From Nitrospirota bacterium (GTDB taxonomy: Bacteria; Nitrospirota; Nitrospiria; Nitrospirales; Nitrospiraceae), in contig JACRLR010000067.1 in assembly GCA_016219645.1 (NCBI GenBank), positions 1-64,000 of the forward strand: 64,000 nucleotides of DNA, read 5' to 3'. Numbering within the stretch: the stretch's first letter is position 1; each line of letters starts with the position of its first letter. Positions 19,270 to 27,808 of this stretch are shown piece by piece. The position numbers and the translations under genes are program-made. The notes beneath the pieces are model-generated. The model was given only the letters and a program-made list of their open reading frames with translations, did no database searches and was not told the DNA's origin.

Positions 19270-19299
19270 TTGACGTACTTAAACGCGTGGTGATAGGAT
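19270..19299 (+). promoter_or_regulatory. Candidate promoter for ilvB
   Basis: TTGACG (19270-19275) and TAGGAT (19294-19299) lie 18 bases apart in the 268-base region between the glutaredoxin-like gene and ilvB. The -35 match is good and the -10 match fair. It would leave a leader of about 140 bases. I see no T-box or leader peptide in that leader. Confidence 0.4.
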
Positions 19300-19443
19300 G
19301 ACGTCTCTTTCTCCCTGATTTTTCAGAATGTTCTGAATGCATGCGGACGCTGTTTCTGGCCCATGAAGGCCCCAAACAGTATGTTGCAGCACCGTAATTA
19401 CCCTGCCTCGTTGCTACTGGATGGTATGGATGGAGGTTCTGTC

Positions 19444-21219
19444 ATGAAGCTCACGGGTGCTGAGATCCTCATAGAATGCCTCAAACGGGAAGGCGTGAAG
19501 ACGATTTTTGCGCTTCCTGGGGGTGTCGTTCTGAAGATTTTTGACATGCTTCATCAGCAGAAGGATATTGAGGTGGTTCTCACCCGTCATGAACAGGGTG
19601 CAGGCCATATGGCGGAAGGCTATGCCAAGGCGACCGGTAAGGCCGGGGTGTGTCTTGTGACTTCCGGACCCGGTATGACGAATGTCATCACCGCGTTGGC
19701 CGATGCCTACATGGATTCCGTGCCGCTGGTTTGTTTCAGCGGACAAGTGCCTACCAGTCTTATCGGAAACGATGCATTCCAAGAGGCGGACAATGTCGGT
19801 TTGAGCCGTCCCTGCACCAAGTACAACTTTCTTGTGAAAAATGTGGCCGAGTTGGCGACGACGATCAAAGAAGCTTTTTACATTGCGACGACCGGCCGTC
19901 CTGGCCCTGTGCTCGTGGATATTCCGAAAGACGTCTCTATGGATAAGGCTGAATTCATCTATCCGAGTTCCGTCTCCATCCGCAGCTACAATCCGGTGTA
20001 TGAGGGGAATAAGTGGCAGATCAAGCAGGCGGCCGAGGCCATGACGAAGGCGAAGAAGCCGATACTCTACGTTGGCGGGGGCGTCGTCTTCTCGGGCGCG
20101 TCGCAGGAGTTATTGGAGTTGGCTGAACTGACTCATATGCCGGTCGACATGACCTTAATGGGTCTTGGGGCTTTCCCTGGCGAACATCCGCAGTCTTTGG
20201 GCATGTTGGGGATGCACGGGACCTATTGGGCGAATATGGCAATGCACTACTCCGACCTCGTCGTTGCCATCGGTGCGAGATTTGATGATCGTGTTACCGG
20301 AAAAGTCTCTGAGTTCTGCCCGCATGCCAAGGTCATCCACATCGATATCGATCCGACCTCGATCCGGAAGAATGTCAATGTCGATATCCCGATCGTCGGG
20401 GACTGTAAGTCCGTGCTCCGTGAGTTGATTCAGATTCTTCGTGCCACGGTGAATGGTGATCAGAAAGAGCTGCGTCGGGCCTGGTGGAATCAGATTCACG
20501 AATGGCAACTGGCAAATCCTCTGACCTACCAACAAGACACTGATGGGCCGATCAAGCCACAATATATCATCAGGCGGCTCTACGACCTGACAAAGGATCG
20601 GGACCCGATCGTGTCAACGGATGTCGGACAACACCAGATGTGGGCCGCCCAGTACTTTAAATTGGCGAAGCCGAATCGTTGGCTGACCTCGGGGGGACTT
20701 GGGACCATGGGCTTTGGGTTTCCCGCCGCTATGGGAGCTCAGGCTGCCTTTCCAGGTCGTCTGGTTCTCTGCATCGCTGGCGACGGCAGCATCCAGATGA
20801 ATATGCAAGAAATGGCGACGGCAGTCGTGCATAAGCTGCCGGTCAAGATCATTATCCTCAATAACCGATTCCACGGGATGGTCCGGCAATGGCAGGACCT
20901 CTTCTATGAAAGCCGGTATGCGTCGAGTTATCTGGAGACGACGCCGGATTTTGTGAAGCTGGCAGAGGCATACGGAGCAGTCGGGCTCAGGGCCAACAAG
21001 CCGTCGGAGATCGATGCGGTCCTCAAAGAAGCGATTGCGGTGAACAAACCGGTCATTGTCGATGTGCCGACCTATCAGTATGAAAACGTCTATCCGATGA
21101 TTCCTGCTGGCGGCTGCAACCATGAGATGATTTTGGAGGATCCGCCGGCCTTAAAAAATAAGCCGACAAGCGGGAGCCAAGCGGCCCCGAAAGACTCGGA
21201 CACGATCCTCACGGCCTAA
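19444..21219 (+). CDS. ilvB: Acetolactate synthase, large (catalytic) subunit
   Basis: The ATG at 19444 follows GGAGG and gives the family start KLTGAEILIECL; 27 codons of open frame upstream are ignored. The protein is 591 residues. The catalytic Glu is in RHEQGAGHMAEGYA, the FAD-binding middle domain holds GARFDDRVTGK, and the TPP site is GDGSIQMNMQE with NNRFHGMVRQWQ. It joins two pyruvates, or pyruvate and 2-oxobutyrate, in the first step of branched-chain amino-acid synthesis. It leads an ilvB-ilvN-ilvC-psd-pssA series. Confidence 0.96.
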   Translation: MKLTGAEILIECLKREGVKTIFALPGGVVLKIFDMLHQQKDIEVVLTRHEQGAGHMAEGYAKATGKAGVCLVTSGPGMTNVITALADAYMDSVPLVCFSGQVPTSLIGNDAFQEADNVGLSRPCTKYNFLVKNVAELATTIKEAFYIATTGRPGPVLVDIPKDVSMDKAEFIYPSSVSIRSYNPVYEGNKWQIKQAAEAMTKAKKPILYVGGGVVFSGASQELLELAELTHMPVDMTLMGLGAFPGEHPQSLGMLGMHGTYWANMAMHYSDLVVAIGARFDDRVTGKVSEFCPHAKVIHIDIDPTSIRKNVNVDIPIVGDCKSVLRELIQILRATVNGDQKELRRAWWNQIHEWQLANPLTYQQDTDGPIKPQYIIRRLYDLTKDRDPIVSTDVGQHQMWAAQYFKLAKPNRWLTSGGLGTMGFGFPAAMGAQAAFPGRLVLCIAGDGSIQMNMQEMATAVVHKLPVKIIILNNRFHGMVRQWQDLFYESRYASSYLETTPDFVKLAEAYGAVGLRANKPSEIDAVLKEAIAVNKPVIVDVPTYQYENVYPMIPAGGCNHEMILEDPPALKNKPTSGSQAAPKDSDTILTA

Positions 21220-21247
21220 CCGCTGGAGCCAGGAGTCCGTATTGGGT

Positions 21248-21766
21248 ATGGAACACATTATTTCAGTGACGGTGGAAAATAAGTTCGGGTCGTTGTCTCG
21301 CGTCGCCGGCCTGTTCAGCGGTCGAGGATTCAACATCGAAAGCCTCTCAGTGGCGCCGACGCTTGACCCGTCTATGTCGCAGATGACCATTGTCACGTCT
21401 GGGGATGAACGGATCATCGAGCAGATCGTGAAGCAGCTCAATAAACTCATTGATGTCATTAAGGTCGTGGATCTGAACGAGAGCGATTTCGTCTCGCGGG
21501 AGACCGCCCTCATCAAAGTGCATACCCGGCCAGAAGATCGTGCTGAAGCCTTGCGGATTGCCGATATTTTTCGAGCCAACGTCATCGATTCCACGCCGGC
21601 GACATACACCATTGAGGTGACTGGAGATCCACGAAAGATCGAAGCGATCATCAATCTGTTGCAGCCTCTGGGAATCAAAGAGCTCACACGTACCGGGCGG
21701 GTTGCGGTTGCTCGCGAGTTGATTCGATCGACAGGTATGCAAGCGAAAAAGATTGCCCGCGAATAG
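21248..21766 (+). CDS. ilvN: Acetolactate synthase, small (regulatory) subunit
   Basis: This 172-residue protein has an N-terminal ACT domain (ISVTVENKFGSLSRVAGLFS, RGFNIESLSV) and a C-terminal activation domain with ALIKV. It binds valine for feedback inhibition and stimulates IlvB. The ATG at 21248 gives the usual MEHIISV start; a TTG six bases upstream is closer to the AGGAG and is an alternative. It lies 28 bases after ilvB. Confidence 0.95.
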   Translation: MEHIISVTVENKFGSLSRVAGLFSGRGFNIESLSVAPTLDPSMSQMTIVTSGDERIIEQIVKQLNKLIDVIKVVDLNESDFVSRETALIKVHTRPEDRAEALRIADIFRANVIDSTPATYTIEVTGDPRKIEAIINLLQPLGIKELTRTGRVAVARELIRSTGMQAKKIARE

Positions 21767-22849
<1,083 letters not shown>

Positions 22850-22856
22850 GGGTTCT

Positions 22857-23507
22857 GTGGCAGACCGTGCCGTTGGGATCCCGTTTGCTAAAGAAGGAAT
22901 TCCCTTCATAGGGGCCGCTGCCGGCGTTACACTGCTGGCAGGGTGGCTGGGCTGGATTATCGTGGCGATCGGGGCGGCGATCCTGACCCTCTTCGTCTCC
23001 TGGTTCTTTCGCAATCCGTCCCGGGTCATCCCTCAGGGGCCTCGCCTTGTCCTGGCGTCCGGTGACGGGAAAGTGATCGCCATCGAAGAAGAGTTCGAGC
23101 CGCGATTCATTAAGGATCGCAGTATCAGGATCAGTATATTTTTGAATGTGTTCGATGTGCATATTAACCGCGTACCCTGTGAAGGGATCATTGAAGATGT
23201 GCAGTATCAACCAGGTATGTTTCTGGTTGCCAGCAAGCCGGACGCGACGTTGAGAAATGAGCAAAATGCCCTGATGATTCGGACCGCGCAGGGTGCGAAG
23301 GTGTTGTGTGTGCAGGTAGCCGGATTGATTGCCAGACGGATTGTCTGTTGGGCTTCGCCAAGAGATCGGGCGGTGCTTGGTGAACGATTCGGTTTGATTC
23401 GATTTGGATCGCGGATGGATACGTTTCTTCCTATTGGGACGGCTGTTAAGGTTGCCGTTGGCGATCGAGTCAAAGGAGGGGAAACCATCCTGGGGGAATT
23501 GCCATGA
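22857..23507 (+). CDS. psd: Phosphatidylserine decarboxylase proenzyme
   Basis: This 216-residue, short-form enzyme has two N-terminal hydrophobic stretches (residues about 17-46), SWFFRNPSR, VFDVHINRVP with the catalytic His, and RFGSRMD near the C-terminus, where autocleavage before Ser creates the pyruvoyl group. It makes phosphatidylethanolamine at the membrane. The start is GTG, seven bases after ilvC. Its stop overlaps the pssA start in an ATGA. The next gene supplies its substrate. Confidence 0.93.
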   Translation: MADRAVGIPFAKEGIPFIGAAAGVTLLAGWLGWIIVAIGAAILTLFVSWFFRNPSRVIPQGPRLVLASGDGKVIAIEEEFEPRFIKDRSIRISIFLNVFDVHINRVPCEGIIEDVQYQPGMFLVASKPDATLRNEQNALMIRTAQGAKVLCVQVAGLIARRIVCWASPRDRAVLGERFGLIRFGSRMDTFLPIGTAVKVAVGDRVKGGETILGELP

Positions 23508-24310
23508 AAACCACAGGGCTTCGTCAATCGTTCGGGAAAGGTGGGAAACAGCGCAAAGCCGCCATGCACCTGATTCCGAATCTTTTTACGACAGGGAATC
23601 TATTGTGCGGTGTATTTTCGATGTTGTCCGTGTTCAATGCGGACTACATGGTCGCAGCGGTCGCAATTCTGGTGGCGATGGTTTTCGACGTGCTCGATGG
23701 AAAGTCGGCACGGTTGACGAACAGCACCAGCCATTTCGGCTTTGAATATGACTCCTTATCCGACGTGGTGTCTTTCGGGGTTGCTCCAGGTCTTTTGATC
23801 TATTCCTGGGCATTGAGCGGACAGGGTATGTTCGGTATGGCGGTGATGTTCGCCTACGTGGCGATGGGTGCAGTTCGGTTGGCCCGATTTAATTCGTCTG
23901 CGGCCGTCGCAGATGGCAAGTATTTTACCGGGTTGGCAATTCCTGCAGCGGCAGGGGTTGTAGCGTCGTTGGTGATCTTCGACCACTATAGTGTCAGAAT
24001 TGGTACGGAAGTGAAGCCCATCCTCGTCCTGATTATTACACTGACCCTTTCGTTCTTGATGGTAAGCACGATCAAGTATCGGAGCTTCAAAGATATGAAA
24101 TTCCGCGGCGGCCAGCAGATCACCTATCTCGTGTGGGGGATTTTGGCCCTCATGCTCATAGCCGCCTGGCCCCAAGTTATGCTCTTTGTCGTTTTTGCCG
24201 GGTATGCCTTGCTCGGTCCGGCAGAACGGCTCGTCGCACTTCTGTCTAAGGTTGCGGGAAAACGTCCGGTGTCTAAGACCGAGCAATCTGTCAGTGAATC
24301 GAAGTTCTAG
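23504..24310 (+). CDS. pssA: CDP-diacylglycerol-serine O-phosphatidyltransferase
   Basis: This 268-residue integral membrane protein has about eight hydrophobic helices. The CDP-alcohol phosphotransferase signature is present: DVLDGKSAR, then GFEYDSLSD (the DGxxAR...GxxxDxxxD pattern). It makes phosphatidylserine, the substrate of the adjacent Psd. It is translationally coupled to psd by a 4-base overlap. Its stop codon lies directly at the start of the T-box leader of leuA, so readthrough from the ilv-psd-pssA unit into leuA is likely. Confidence 0.94.
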   Translation: MKTTGLRQSFGKGGKQRKAAMHLIPNLFTTGNLLCGVFSMLSVFNADYMVAAVAILVAMVFDVLDGKSARLTNSTSHFGFEYDSLSDVVSFGVAPGLLIYSWALSGQGMFGMAVMFAYVAMGAVRLARFNSSAAVADGKYFTGLAIPAAAGVVASLVIFDHYSVRIGTEVKPILVLIITLTLSFLMVSTIKYRSFKDMKFRGGQQITYLVWGILALMLIAAWPQVMLFVVFAGYALLGPAERLVALLSKVAGKRPVSKTEQSVSESKF

Positions 24311-24312
24311 CG

Positions 24313-24569
24313 GCTTCGACGAGGAGTAGTAAGCGATTCGCACGGTACTGAGAGAGCTGGTGGATGGTGCAAACCAGCCTGTGCGGCGCTGAACTCGCCT
24401 CTGAGCCAGAGTCCGTGAAACCCGAGTAATGGATTCCGCCTCGCCCCCGTGACCGGGCGCAATCGAGGGCTACGGACAGCACACGTTGTTCATAGCTAAA
24501 TCAGGGTGGTACCACGGAGCTTTTCAAGCCTCCGTCCCTGGGCTGAGGGATGGAGGCTTTTGTGTTTTT
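24313..24569 (+). promoter_or_regulatory. T-box leader (leucine-type) with transcription terminator, upstream of leuA
   Basis: Classic T-box landmarks occur in order: the stem I bulge AGTAGTAAG, GAGAGCTGGTGGATGGTGC with AAACCAGC, the specifier-loop segment GAACTCGCCTCTGAG, and the T-box itself AGGGTGGTACCACGG (24503-24517). The codon CTC at 24394-24396 in the specifier position fits leucine. A terminator follows: AAGCCTCCGTCCCT (24526-24539) pairs with AGGGATGGAGGCTT (24546-24559), then a T-rich run to 24569. Uncharged tRNA-Leu would stabilise the antiterminator and allow leuA transcription. No strong separate promoter was found, so it may act as an attenuator inside a longer operon. Confidence 0.93.
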
Positions 24570-24570
24570 G

Positions 24571-24696
24571 CAGACTGCTGAAAACGACCGCGAGCTTCGT
24601 TCTCGGCTTGAAGACATCCTCAACGTACCCCAGAGGGTACGCCTGCGGTGTCTTCTGCACCTGCGGCCTTGCTGGACGATCGTTTTGAGCAGTCTG
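24571..24696. repeat. Hairpin repeat, family A, between the T-box terminator and leuA
   Basis: Outer arms 24571-24590 (CAGACTGCTGAAAACGACCG) and 24677-24696 are complementary at 18 of 20 positions. An inner hairpin CGTACCC/GGGTACG lies at 24624-24641. The right part shares CTGCGGCCTTGCT and TTTTGAGCAG with the element at 62056-62270. It fills almost all of the space between the T-box terminator and the leuA ribosome-binding site, so it will be part of the leuA mRNA leader. Confidence 0.75.
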
Positions 24697-24717: not shown

Positions 24718-26265
24718 ATGACACGCATGATCAGAATTTTCGATACGACGTTGCGGGATGGGGAACAGTCGCCTGGGGCCAGTATGAATGTGGAAGAAAA
24801 GGTCATGGTGGCGAAGCAGTTGGCACGTTTGGGAGTTGATATCATTGAGGCCGGATTTGCGTATAGTTCGCCCGGTGATTTTGCCGCGGTGCAGCGGATC
24901 GCACAGGAGGTCGAAGGCCCAACGATTTGCAGCTTAGCGCGGGCGCGACCGGAGGATATCACTCGAGCCTGGGAGGCATTGAAAGGCGCTCCGAAGGTCC
25001 GCATTCATACGTTTCTCTCGACGTCGGATATCCACTTAAAGCACCAATTCCGGATGACGCGCGACGAGGCAAAGAAACGCGCGGTCGACATGGTGCAACT
25101 GGCGAGGGGATATGTGGACAATGTGGAGTTTTCACCTATGGATGCCAGTCGCTCCGATCCGGCCTATCTCTATGAAGTGATTGAGGCGGTGATTGCAGCA
25201 GGCGCCGGCACGATCAATATTCCCGACACGGTCGGCTACGCAGTGCCGCAAGAATTCGGGAGGCTCATTCGTGACATTCGTGAGCAAGTGCCGAACAGTG
25301 CGAAAGCGGTGATTTCCGTCCATTGCCACAACGATCTTGGGCTTGCCGTAGGTAATAGCTTGGCGGCGGTGTTCGAAGGCGCCGGCCAGGTCGAATGCAC
25401 GATCAATGGAATCGGTGAACGGGCTGGGAACACGGCACTGGAAGAAATTGTCATGGGCCTTCGGACCAGGAAAGATTTCTATCGAGCCGACACGCAGATT
25501 CGCACCGAAGAGATCTCGAAGACCAGCCGATTGGTCAGCAAGATCACCGGCATGGTGGTGCAGCCGAACAAGGCGATTGTGGGGGCGAATGCCTTTGCCC
25601 ATACGTCTGGGATTCACCAGGACGGGCTCCTGAAGGATAAAACCACATATGAAATCATACGGCCTGAGGCAATCGGATTGCTTGAGAGCAAGATGGTCAT
25701 GGGGAAGCTTTCAGGCCGGCACGCATTTCGACAGAGGCTGATAGAGCTCGGATATACACTCTCGGACGAGGAGGTGAATCATGCGTTCGAACGGTTTAAG
25801 AAGCTGGCCGATCAAAAGAAGGAGATCTATGAAGAAGATCTCGAAGTCATCGTTTCTGAAGAGTTAGCCAAAATGGCTGATCGGATCGCGCTGAAATCAT
25901 TTCATGTGGCCAGCGGGACAGATCAGGTGCCGACCGCTACGGTCGAACTTGAGATCGACGGCCGAACGGTCGCGCAGACTGGGACAGGAGATGGGCCGGT
26001 CGATGCGGTCTATCGGACGATTGCTGCCCTGACGGAGACAAAGAGCACGCTCCTCATGTATGCCGTGAAGGCCATCACTGGTGGCACTGACGCCCAGGGC
26101 GAAGTCTCAGTTCGGGTTCAGGAAGACGGCCGCACTGTCTCAGGGCATGGGGCAGATACGGACATCATCATGGCGTCGGCGCGTGCCTATCTCAACGCAT
26201 TGAACAGGCTGTCGTTTCTGGCTGGAAAACAGGCGCAGGGCGAGCAGAGGGTGAACTTGATTTAG
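24718..26265 (+). CDS. leuA: 2-isopropylmalate synthase
   Basis: This 515-residue type 1 enzyme has the catalytic TIM barrel start [16 protein letters not shown], metal ligands in [12 protein letters not shown] and [23 protein letters not shown], and a C-terminal regulatory domain with [12 protein letters not shown], which binds leucine for feedback inhibition. It condenses 2-oxoisovalerate with acetyl-CoA, the first committed step to leucine. A leucine T-box and a hairpin repeat precede it; a GAGAGGG ribosome-binding site lies between the repeat and the ATG. leuC and leuD are not in the window. Confidence 0.97.
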
Positions 26266-26270
26266 GGAAA

Positions 26271-26693
26271 GTGACCACGGTAAGTTCACAGCTCAGGCCC
26301 TCAATAGTGCCGTTGGTTGTGAGGTATGCCGTGGTTCATGTTACCTTGGCAGATCGAAGGGAGTTTCTGGCGGGAGACCATACAGTTCTGCGAGAGCTTC
26401 TGCATCCGGCGAAACAACCGCTTGCGCTTCGATATAGTCTGGCTCATGGGACACTAGCCCCCGGCGGCCGGTCGAAATGGCACAGGCTGAGGTCTTCAGA
26501 GGTCTACTACATTATTGCCGGCCGGGGACGAATGACCGTAGAAGACTCGGTCGTGTTGGTTGAACCAGGCTCCGTTATCTATGTGCCGCCTGGCGGTAAG
26601 CAGTCTCTGGAGAATAGTGGTCCCGCCGCTATCGAGTTTCTCTGCCTGGTCGATCCCGCTTGGAAGCCGGAGGATGAGGAAGTACTTGAGTAG
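26271..26693 (+). CDS. Cupin-domain protein
   Basis: The protein is 140 residues from a GTG. The conserved cupin half-motifs are present: G(X)5H in GGRSKWHRLRSSEVYYIIAG, and PGSVIYVPPGGKQSLEN. Several metal ligands of typical cupins are represented (His, Glu), although the second motif has Gln where His is common. It lies 5 bases after leuA and 41 before leuB, so it is embedded in the leucine genes. The function is unknown; it may be a small sugar- or ligand-binding or isomerase-like protein. Confidence 0.75.
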   Translation: MTTVSSQLRPSIVPLVVRYAVVHVTLADRREFLAGDHTVLRELLHPAKQPLALRYSLAHGTLAPGGRSKWHRLRSSEVYYIIAGRGRMTVEDSVVLVEPGSVIYVPPGGKQSLENSGPAAIEFLCLVDPAWKPEDEEVLE

Positions 26694-26734
26694 AGACTGG
26701 GATGGCCATGTCTGACAAGGATGGAGGGTGATCT

Positions 26735-27808
26735 GTGAAGGCGAAGATTGCCGTATTAGCCGGTGATGGAGTGGGTCGAGAGATCGTCCCTGAAGCTGTG
26801 AAAGTGTTGAAGGCTGTGGCCGAAAAATTCCAGCACGGGTTCGAGTTTCTGTTCGGTCCTGTCGGCGGACAGGCTATCGACACAGTCGGTGTCCCGCTCC
26901 CACAGGAGACGCTGACCTTGGCTAAACAGAGCGATGCCGTTTTGCTTGGTGCAGTCGGCGGCCCTAAATGGGAAGGGCTGGACTATAACTTGCGTCCAGA
27001 ACGCGCGCTGTTGGGATTGCGCGAGCATCTGGGCCTCTACGCGAACTTACGTCCGGCGAAGTTGTATCCGATGTTGGCTGATGCCTCCACGTTGAAACGC
27101 GAGGTGATTGAGGGGATCGACATCCTCGTCATTCGTGAACTGACCGGCGGCATCTATTTCGGGAAGCCCAAAGGAATTGAGAAGCTGGCGAACGGGAGCG
27201 AGCGGGGTATCAATACCGAGGTCTATACCACCGAAGAAATTCAGCGCATTGCGAAAGTCGCGTTTGATGCGGCGAGAAAGCGCCGGAAAAAGGTGATGTC
27301 TGTTGACAAAGCGAACGTGCTGGAGTCCTCAGAACTCTGGCGCCGCGTGGTCATCGAGACGCACAAAAGCTATCCGGATGTGGAGCTGAGCCATATCTAT
27401 GTCGACAATGCGGCAATGCAACTGGTCCGCAATCCTCGGCAGTTCGACGTGATGCTGTGCAATAATATTTTCGGAGATATCCTGAGCGATGAAGCTGCGA
27501 TGCTGACGGGGTCCATCGGCATGTTGCCGTCTGCCAGTATTGGCGCACAGGTTGGGCTCTTCGAGCCGATCCACGGAAGCGCGCCGGACATTGCCGGGAA
27601 GAACATGGCGAATCCCATTGCAACGATTGCTTCGGCGGCCATGATGTTGTCGTACGCGTTTAAGTTGGATAAAGAAGCAGCAGCTGTTGAGCAGGCCATC
27701 GTGAAAACTCTCGATCTCGGCTATCGCACAAAAGATATTCATAGCCCCGGTACTCGTCTTGTCACGACGACAGAAATGAGTGAGGCTATTTTGCGAAACC
27801 TGAACTAG
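26735..27808 (+). CDS. leuB: 3-isopropylmalate dehydrogenase
   Basis: This 357-residue protein has [12 protein letters not shown] at the N-terminus, [21 protein letters not shown], the catalytic Tyr/Lys region [13 protein letters not shown] and [13 protein letters not shown], and the metal-binding [15 protein letters not shown]. The NAD-specific signature [14 protein letters not shown] is present. It oxidatively decarboxylates 3-isopropylmalate. The start is GTG. It lies downstream of leuA and the cupin gene in one direction. Confidence 0.97.

Follow-up and report, generated by a model that had tools for sequence, protein, structure and literature searches.

A leucine T-box between pssA and leuA in the ilv-leu gene series of Nitrospiraceae, a likely operon-internal read-through switch

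From its sequence, the stretch between pssA and leuA is almost certainly a class I (transcription-attenuating) leucine T-box. We identified it in the window, by which we mean the whole 64,000-nucleotide stretch of DNA analysed. The leader sits within the series ilvB, ilvN, ilvC, psd, pssA, leuA, a cupin protein and leuB, and NCBIfam and Pfam matches bear out the ilv-psd-pssA-leuA order that an earlier, sequence-only reading had claimed. On present evidence it is likely to be a read-through switch internal to the ilv-leu operon. What is new here is a promoter contrast: the leaders of Nitrospiraceae lack a consensus promoter, whereas those of the Geobacter group and of the Nitrospirota families f9 and f16 carry one.

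Table 1. Features of the T-box leader and of the surrounding gene series in the window
Feature	Position	Strand	Basis
Likely operon promoter TTGACG-18-TAGGAT, 5′ of ilvB	19270..19299	+	sigma-70 scoring; similar site in 13/13 related loci
ilvB, ilvN, ilvC	19363..22849	+	NCBIfam/Pfam
ilvB	19363..21219	+	NCBIfam/Pfam
psd, phosphatidylserine decarboxylase	22857..23507	+	NCBIfam/Pfam
pssA, immediate upstream neighbour; stop abuts Stem I	23504..24310	+	NCBIfam/Pfam
Complete T-box leader, Stem I through terminator T-tract	24312..24569	+	cmscan RF00230 and sequence
Stem I	24312..24407	+	RF00230 match, covariation alignment
Specifier codon CTC (Leu), next base G	24394..24396	+	RF00230 match; cognate tRNA-Leu(GAG) in genome
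Stem II (GAGTCC / GGATTC)	24409..24436	+	97% paired cells and compensatory changes, 30 leaders
Antiterminator, bulge TGGTACC at 24507-24513	24503..24539	+	RF00230 match, alignment
Intrinsic terminator hairpin and T-tract, exclusive with antiterminator	24526..24569	+	sequence, terminator-state pairing
Dispersed imperfect-palindrome repeat, 126 bp, between terminator and leuA	24571..24696	+	sequence, covariance model
leuA, 2-isopropylmalate synthase, putative regulated gene	24718..26265	+	NCBIfam TIGR00973 above cut-off
Cupin-domain protein and leuB, 3′ of leuA	26271..27808	+	NCBIfam/Pfam

A cmscan of 601 bases returned a match to RF00230 at 24307-24542 on the forward strand that spans the full model (1-219) with 85.4 bits and E=4.1e-19 (E=5.8e-19 at whole-genome search size). 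This confirms the T-box leader that the sequence-only reading had placed at 24313-24569, and a whole-genome covariance search counts one T-box in this genome. The Infernal check proposed in that reading had a split outcome, with a highly significant whole-model match whose bit score falls short of the 93 that Rfam sets as gathering score, a curation threshold and not an anatomical feature; the refuting condition of that reading, a covariance score under threshold, is thereby formally triggered. Scanned with Rfam defaults, the window therefore yields RNase P and one tRNA alone, without the element. We do not read the sub-cut-off score as exclusion, since the match is highly significant, T-boxes before leuA exceed the gathering score in 58 of the 396 genomes sampled from the phylum, and all anatomical features are present. 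Most likely the low score reflects the AT-rich consensus of the RF00230 model. A chance match is rejected by the E-value of 4e-19, by covariation above all 500 shuffles, and by nearly 100 other loci with the element in the same place.

The anatomy is that of a complete leader. The pssA stop codon TAG occupies 24308-24310 and Stem I pairing begins at 24312, in keeping with an element described as starting directly at the pssA stop. Stem I contains the specifier loop, the GA-rich motif, and the distal AG-bulge/loop module, with GAGGAGTAGTA, AGAGAG, and GGATGGTGCAAACC in the expected positions, and both the CTC specifier and the terminator claimed earlier are present. The antiterminator is formed by AGGG (24503-24506), the TGGTACC bulge, and ACGGAG, pairing with CTCCGTCCCT (24530-24539); the conserved UGGN bulge within the AGGGTGGTACCACG antiterminator complements a tRNA NCCA end. 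The terminator is AAGCCTCCGTCCCT-GGGCTG-AGGGATGGAGGCTT (24526-24559) followed by TTGTGTTTTT, and because CTCCGTCCCT is common to both hairpins, the two are mutually exclusive. The same genome has a tRNA-Leu(GAG) gene that encodes its ACCA end (L157, ARAGORN); this tRNA complements both the CTC specifier and the bulge TGGT, and the specifier, the leuA target, and the cognate tRNA all agree on leucine.

A T-box covariance search of 396 genomes sampled from the phylum found a match in 125 of them, comprising 108 of the 110 sampled Nitrospiraceae, 6 genomes in the rest of the class, and 11 in the rest of the phylum; no T-box was listed in the other families of the same order. This is the survey of Nitrospirota that had been suggested, and the Nitrospira-like host was also correctly called, with named Nitrospira contigs carrying the same operon. 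None of these 396 genomes had a second full T-box, and two listed pieces at contig ends in one genome (G319) look like a single leader split by assembly. Wherever the downstream gene is readable, leuA lies 3′ of the T-box, and psd and pssA precede it in nearly all such loci; the exceptions are an f16 locus (L007), in which 824 bases separate the T-box from leuA and pssA is more distant, and an f9 locus (L166) without a pssA match. In nearly all close relatives that we read, the leader lies about 0-20 nt from the pssA stop. Genomes of the Geobacter group and other Nitrospirota also show the order ilvBNC-psd-pssA-T-box-leuA. Relatives without the T-box motif, including those with longer pssA-leuA gaps (L043, L047, L055, L098), contained no undetected T-boxes.

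Some observations on gene order and leader form stand beside this survey. The pair psd-pssA lies between ilvC and leuA, in the same order, in Nitrospirota, in the Geobacter group, in one Nitrospinae contig, and in several deltaproteobacterial contigs (L042-L080, L098, L100), and the linkage of psd-pssA to ilvC and leuA is apparently an old one. In the leuA T-boxes of four f9 loci of the same class (L164, L165, L166, L167), Stem I is truncated: the specifier loop is topped by a short hairpin only (GGTC-AACA-GACC in L166) and the distal AG-bulge module is missing. These truncated T-boxes do have a transcription terminator and their own TTGACA promoter. Truncation of Stem I is known mainly from actinobacterial ileS T-boxes.

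Whether the leader is transcribed from its own promoter or by read-through determines how it could act. A single simple, E. coli-like sigma-70 matrix, which other promoter types could escape, was applied to the 90 bases preceding each leader. Neither the surroundings of the leader in the window nor 76 Nitrospiraceae leaders showed a sigma-70-like site; at the 76 leaders the mean best score was 2.9 versus 3.4 for controls. This agrees with the earlier remark that no clear separate promoter is present. The mean scores were 13.0 for f9 (4 leaders), 10.9 for f16 (5 leaders), and 11.6 for the Geobacter group (12 leaders), with controls at 3.3-4.2. Clear boxes such as TTGACA-18-CATAAT and TTGACA-17-TAAGAT, located 13-23 bases 5′ of the leader, were observed at the 4 f9 leaders, at 4 of the 5 f16 leaders (L007 being the one with a low score), and at the 12 Geobacter-group leaders, while f15, f6, and f19, with 2-3 leaders each, gave no clear pattern. 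The matrix works in Nitrospiraceae: it recovers an ilvB promoter of the form TTGAC[CGT]-17/18-TA[GC][GC]AT in 13 of 13 loci with scores of 9.3-9.9 and gives the tRNA genes of this genome a mean score of 7.6. Several of these tRNA genes score low, as does L007, so that a low promoter score by itself weighs little.

We weighed the alternative in which the leader has its own promoter of a non-E. coli-consensus type inside the 3′ end of pssA, making leuA a separate transcription unit with a stand-alone T-box. An own promoter is the usual T-box arrangement, and it is what the Geobacter group, f9, and f16 display; yet the 76 Nitrospiraceae leaders lack a sigma-70-like box under the same scorer that detects the ilvB promoter in every locus scored. 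A promoter hidden in pssA also has counter-evidence at the level of the coding sequence, since conservation of four-fold, synonymous sites at the pssA 3′ end does not exceed that found elsewhere in pssA. In many Nitrospirota relatives that lack the T-box, the pssA-leuA spacing is -26 to +80 nt, and such overlap or near contact makes pssA and leuA look co-transcribed in those genomes. Together, the promoter scan, the synonymous-site test, and the gene spacing favour the operon-internal valve and support the suggestion that the leucine branch may be controlled without its own promoter, and we consider a stand-alone transcription unit unlikely.

Covariation and specifier identity bear on whether the element is functional. 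In an alignment of 30 leaders with 42 antiterminator-state pairs, tested against 500 shuffles and slid versions, 89% of the pairs are standard versus 79% after shuffling, and double changes number 129 versus 39, a value that 0 of 500 shuffles equalled and that is far above every slid version. The terminator has 93% paired cells in the same alignment, whereas the helix after Stem II (the IIA/B region) is only 62% paired, and we make no claim for it. Covariation among thirty homologues supports the fold. Among 98 leaders read, the specifier is CTC in 95 and CTG in 3, all leucine codons and always followed by a purine. The three CTG specifiers belong to three Nitrospiraceae genomes (L017, L022, L179), and a change from CTC to CTG would shift sensing from tRNA-Leu(GAG) to tRNA-Leu(CAG). 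A decayed relic without regulatory function could account for a score under the Rfam gathering cut-off; it fits poorly with motifs that are all intact, helices with compensatory changes, retention in all but two of the Nitrospiraceae genomes, and specifiers that change solely to another Leu codon, and we regard it as very improbable. Least credible of all is a ribosome-mediated leucine leader-peptide attenuator of the kind used by Gammaproteobacteria leucine operons, or another attenuator that only resembles a T-box, given the full T-box model match with its AGGGTGGTACCACG antiterminator, the lack of any Leu-leader family match in an Rfam cmscan of the leader region, and a specifier that lies in the internal loop of Stem I instead of among consecutive Leu codons of a leader reading frame.

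Taken as a whole, we think it likely that this class I leucine T-box works on read-through within an ilvBNC-psd-pssA-leuA operon. RNA polymerase would initiate 5′ of ilvB, pass through ilvBNC-psd-pssA, whose intergenic gaps from ilvB to pssA are 22, 69, 7, and -4 nt, and meet the leader just past the pssA stop. When tRNA-Leu(GAG) is uncharged, its anticodon would pair with the specifier CUC, and its ACCA end would pair with the bulge UGGU, stabilizing the antiterminator and allowing read-through into leuA-cupin-leuB. When tRNA-Leu is charged, its CCA end would be unable to pair, the 14-bp terminator would form, and transcription would end, turning the leucine branch off with ilvBNC-psd-pssA still expressed. 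The leader anatomy, the specifier, the exclusive hairpins, the cognate tRNA gene, the conservation, and the absence of any consensus promoter at this site are read directly from the DNA; that the leader binds tRNA, that transcription reads through from ilvB, and that the element regulates are inferences. If this scheme holds, the valve would set the ratio of the leucine branch to ilvBNC-psd-pssA within a single transcript.

The transcript may extend further. Between 26265 and 32554 of the window, leuA is followed by the cupin gene, leuB, an NHL-repeat protein, asd, DUF2905, a SpoIID-domain protein, and queA, with small gaps and no strong intervening terminator. Given this spacing, genes beyond the leucine set may also be under T-box control.

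The spacer from the terminator to leuA holds a dispersed palindromic repeat with no Rfam family match. A covariance model of this repeat has 113 matches in the same genome and from 48 to at least 140 matches in each of 15 other genomes of the genus, where up to 140 candidates per genome were scored, and most genomes of neighbouring families have few matches. The repeat folds far better than its shuffles (z=-6.4), and its terminal stem TGCTGAAAA...TTTTGAGCA covaries between copies (L112-L119, L221-L240). In this genome 15 of 20 other copies lie no more than 15 nt 3′ of a same-strand reading frame, and the sequence context suggests a 3′-end element or an orientation-specific insertion. It may influence how stable the read-through transcript is or how well it is translated. 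Many Nitrospiraceae loci from several genera (e.g. L187, L192, L209, L067, L185) have elements of a similar kind and other sequence types right after the T-box terminator, and about 20 Nitrospiraceae loci have none at this site; repeated insertion and replacement by conversion are both possible origins of this variety. In two loci (L030 and L207) the palindrome loop is interrupted by an extra segment, and in two others (L182 and L183) by a different segment.

The history of the leader can be approached from LeuA. Of 247 genomes sampled from the Geobacter phylum, 10 have a T-box, and in the fetched loci each of the ten precedes leuA. Mapping the T-box label onto a 106-row LeuA tree takes a minimum of 7 changes, of which well-supported branches force 4, with gains not distinguishable from losses by this labelling. 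The Nitrospirota rows cluster mostly by lineage, and the Geobacter-group rows form their own clade apart from them (SH-aLRT 99). A simple transfer of the leuA operon and its T-box from Geobacter is rejected by these separate clades. Outside Firmicutes, T-boxes may have long occupied the pssA-leuA junction and been lost from it repeatedly, and by the tree either repeated loss of an old leader or repeated gain is possible. Our somewhat favoured reading is that a promoterless, operon-internal leucine T-box became fixed in Nitrospiraceae at a junction where other Nitrospirota families and the Geobacter group have a leader with its own promoter, the promoter having been lost or the leader inserted without one, to give a tRNA-controlled valve.

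These results extend T-box control to Nitrospiraceae, a family of nitrite and complete ammonia oxidisers that does not figure in the T-box surveys consulted. The element is nearly universal in this family, and about half of its T-boxes escape the default Rfam cut-off. They offer a test case for a T-box as a valve within a long operon. That Nitrospirota and Geobacter share this gene position, some leaders having a promoter and others none, with T-box-free operons in between, also provides a data set on the age versus the acquisition of T-boxes outside Firmicutes.

Parts of this arrangement have counterparts elsewhere. In the B. subtilis gltX-cysE-cysS operon, a T-box between gltX and cysE acts on read-through from the upstream promoter; it is likewise in-operon, and it differs in its Cys specificity, its genes, and its phylum. 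The B. subtilis ilv-leu T-box also senses tRNA-Leu on branched-chain amino-acid genes, but there a single leader serves the entire ilvBNC-leuABCD operon (PMC12452182), whereas here the leader follows ilvBNC-psd-pssA and would act on leuA and beyond only. A 2013 survey gave the range of T-boxes as Firmicutes, Actinobacteria, Chloroflexi, and Thermus/Deinococcus together with Geobacter (PMC3766115). Our literature search, made outside the main T-box surveys, found no paper naming a T-box in Nitrospira, and databases such as TBDB, with 23,535 T-boxes (PMC7778990), may include some. The sequence-only reading had called a leuA T-box outside Firmicutes notable; this stands for a Nitrospira-like host, with the surprise lowered by T-boxes already published before leuA in Geobacter sulfurreducens and Pelobacter carbinolicus in 2008 (PMC2494555) and, with tRNA-Leu(GAG), in Geobacter metallireducens in 2009 (PMC2700814). 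Those leaders resemble ours in their CTC/tRNA-Leu(GAG) specificity and leuA target, and L100 and several other Geobacter-group genomes match the Nitrospiraceae order psd-pssA-T-box-leuA. However, the Geobacter-group leader has a consensus sigma-70 promoter directly 5′ and an Rfam score above the cut-off, whereas the Nitrospiraceae leader has no such promoter and abuts the pssA stop. The type of switch is thus already known, and its clade-wide promoterless placement is probably the unusual part.
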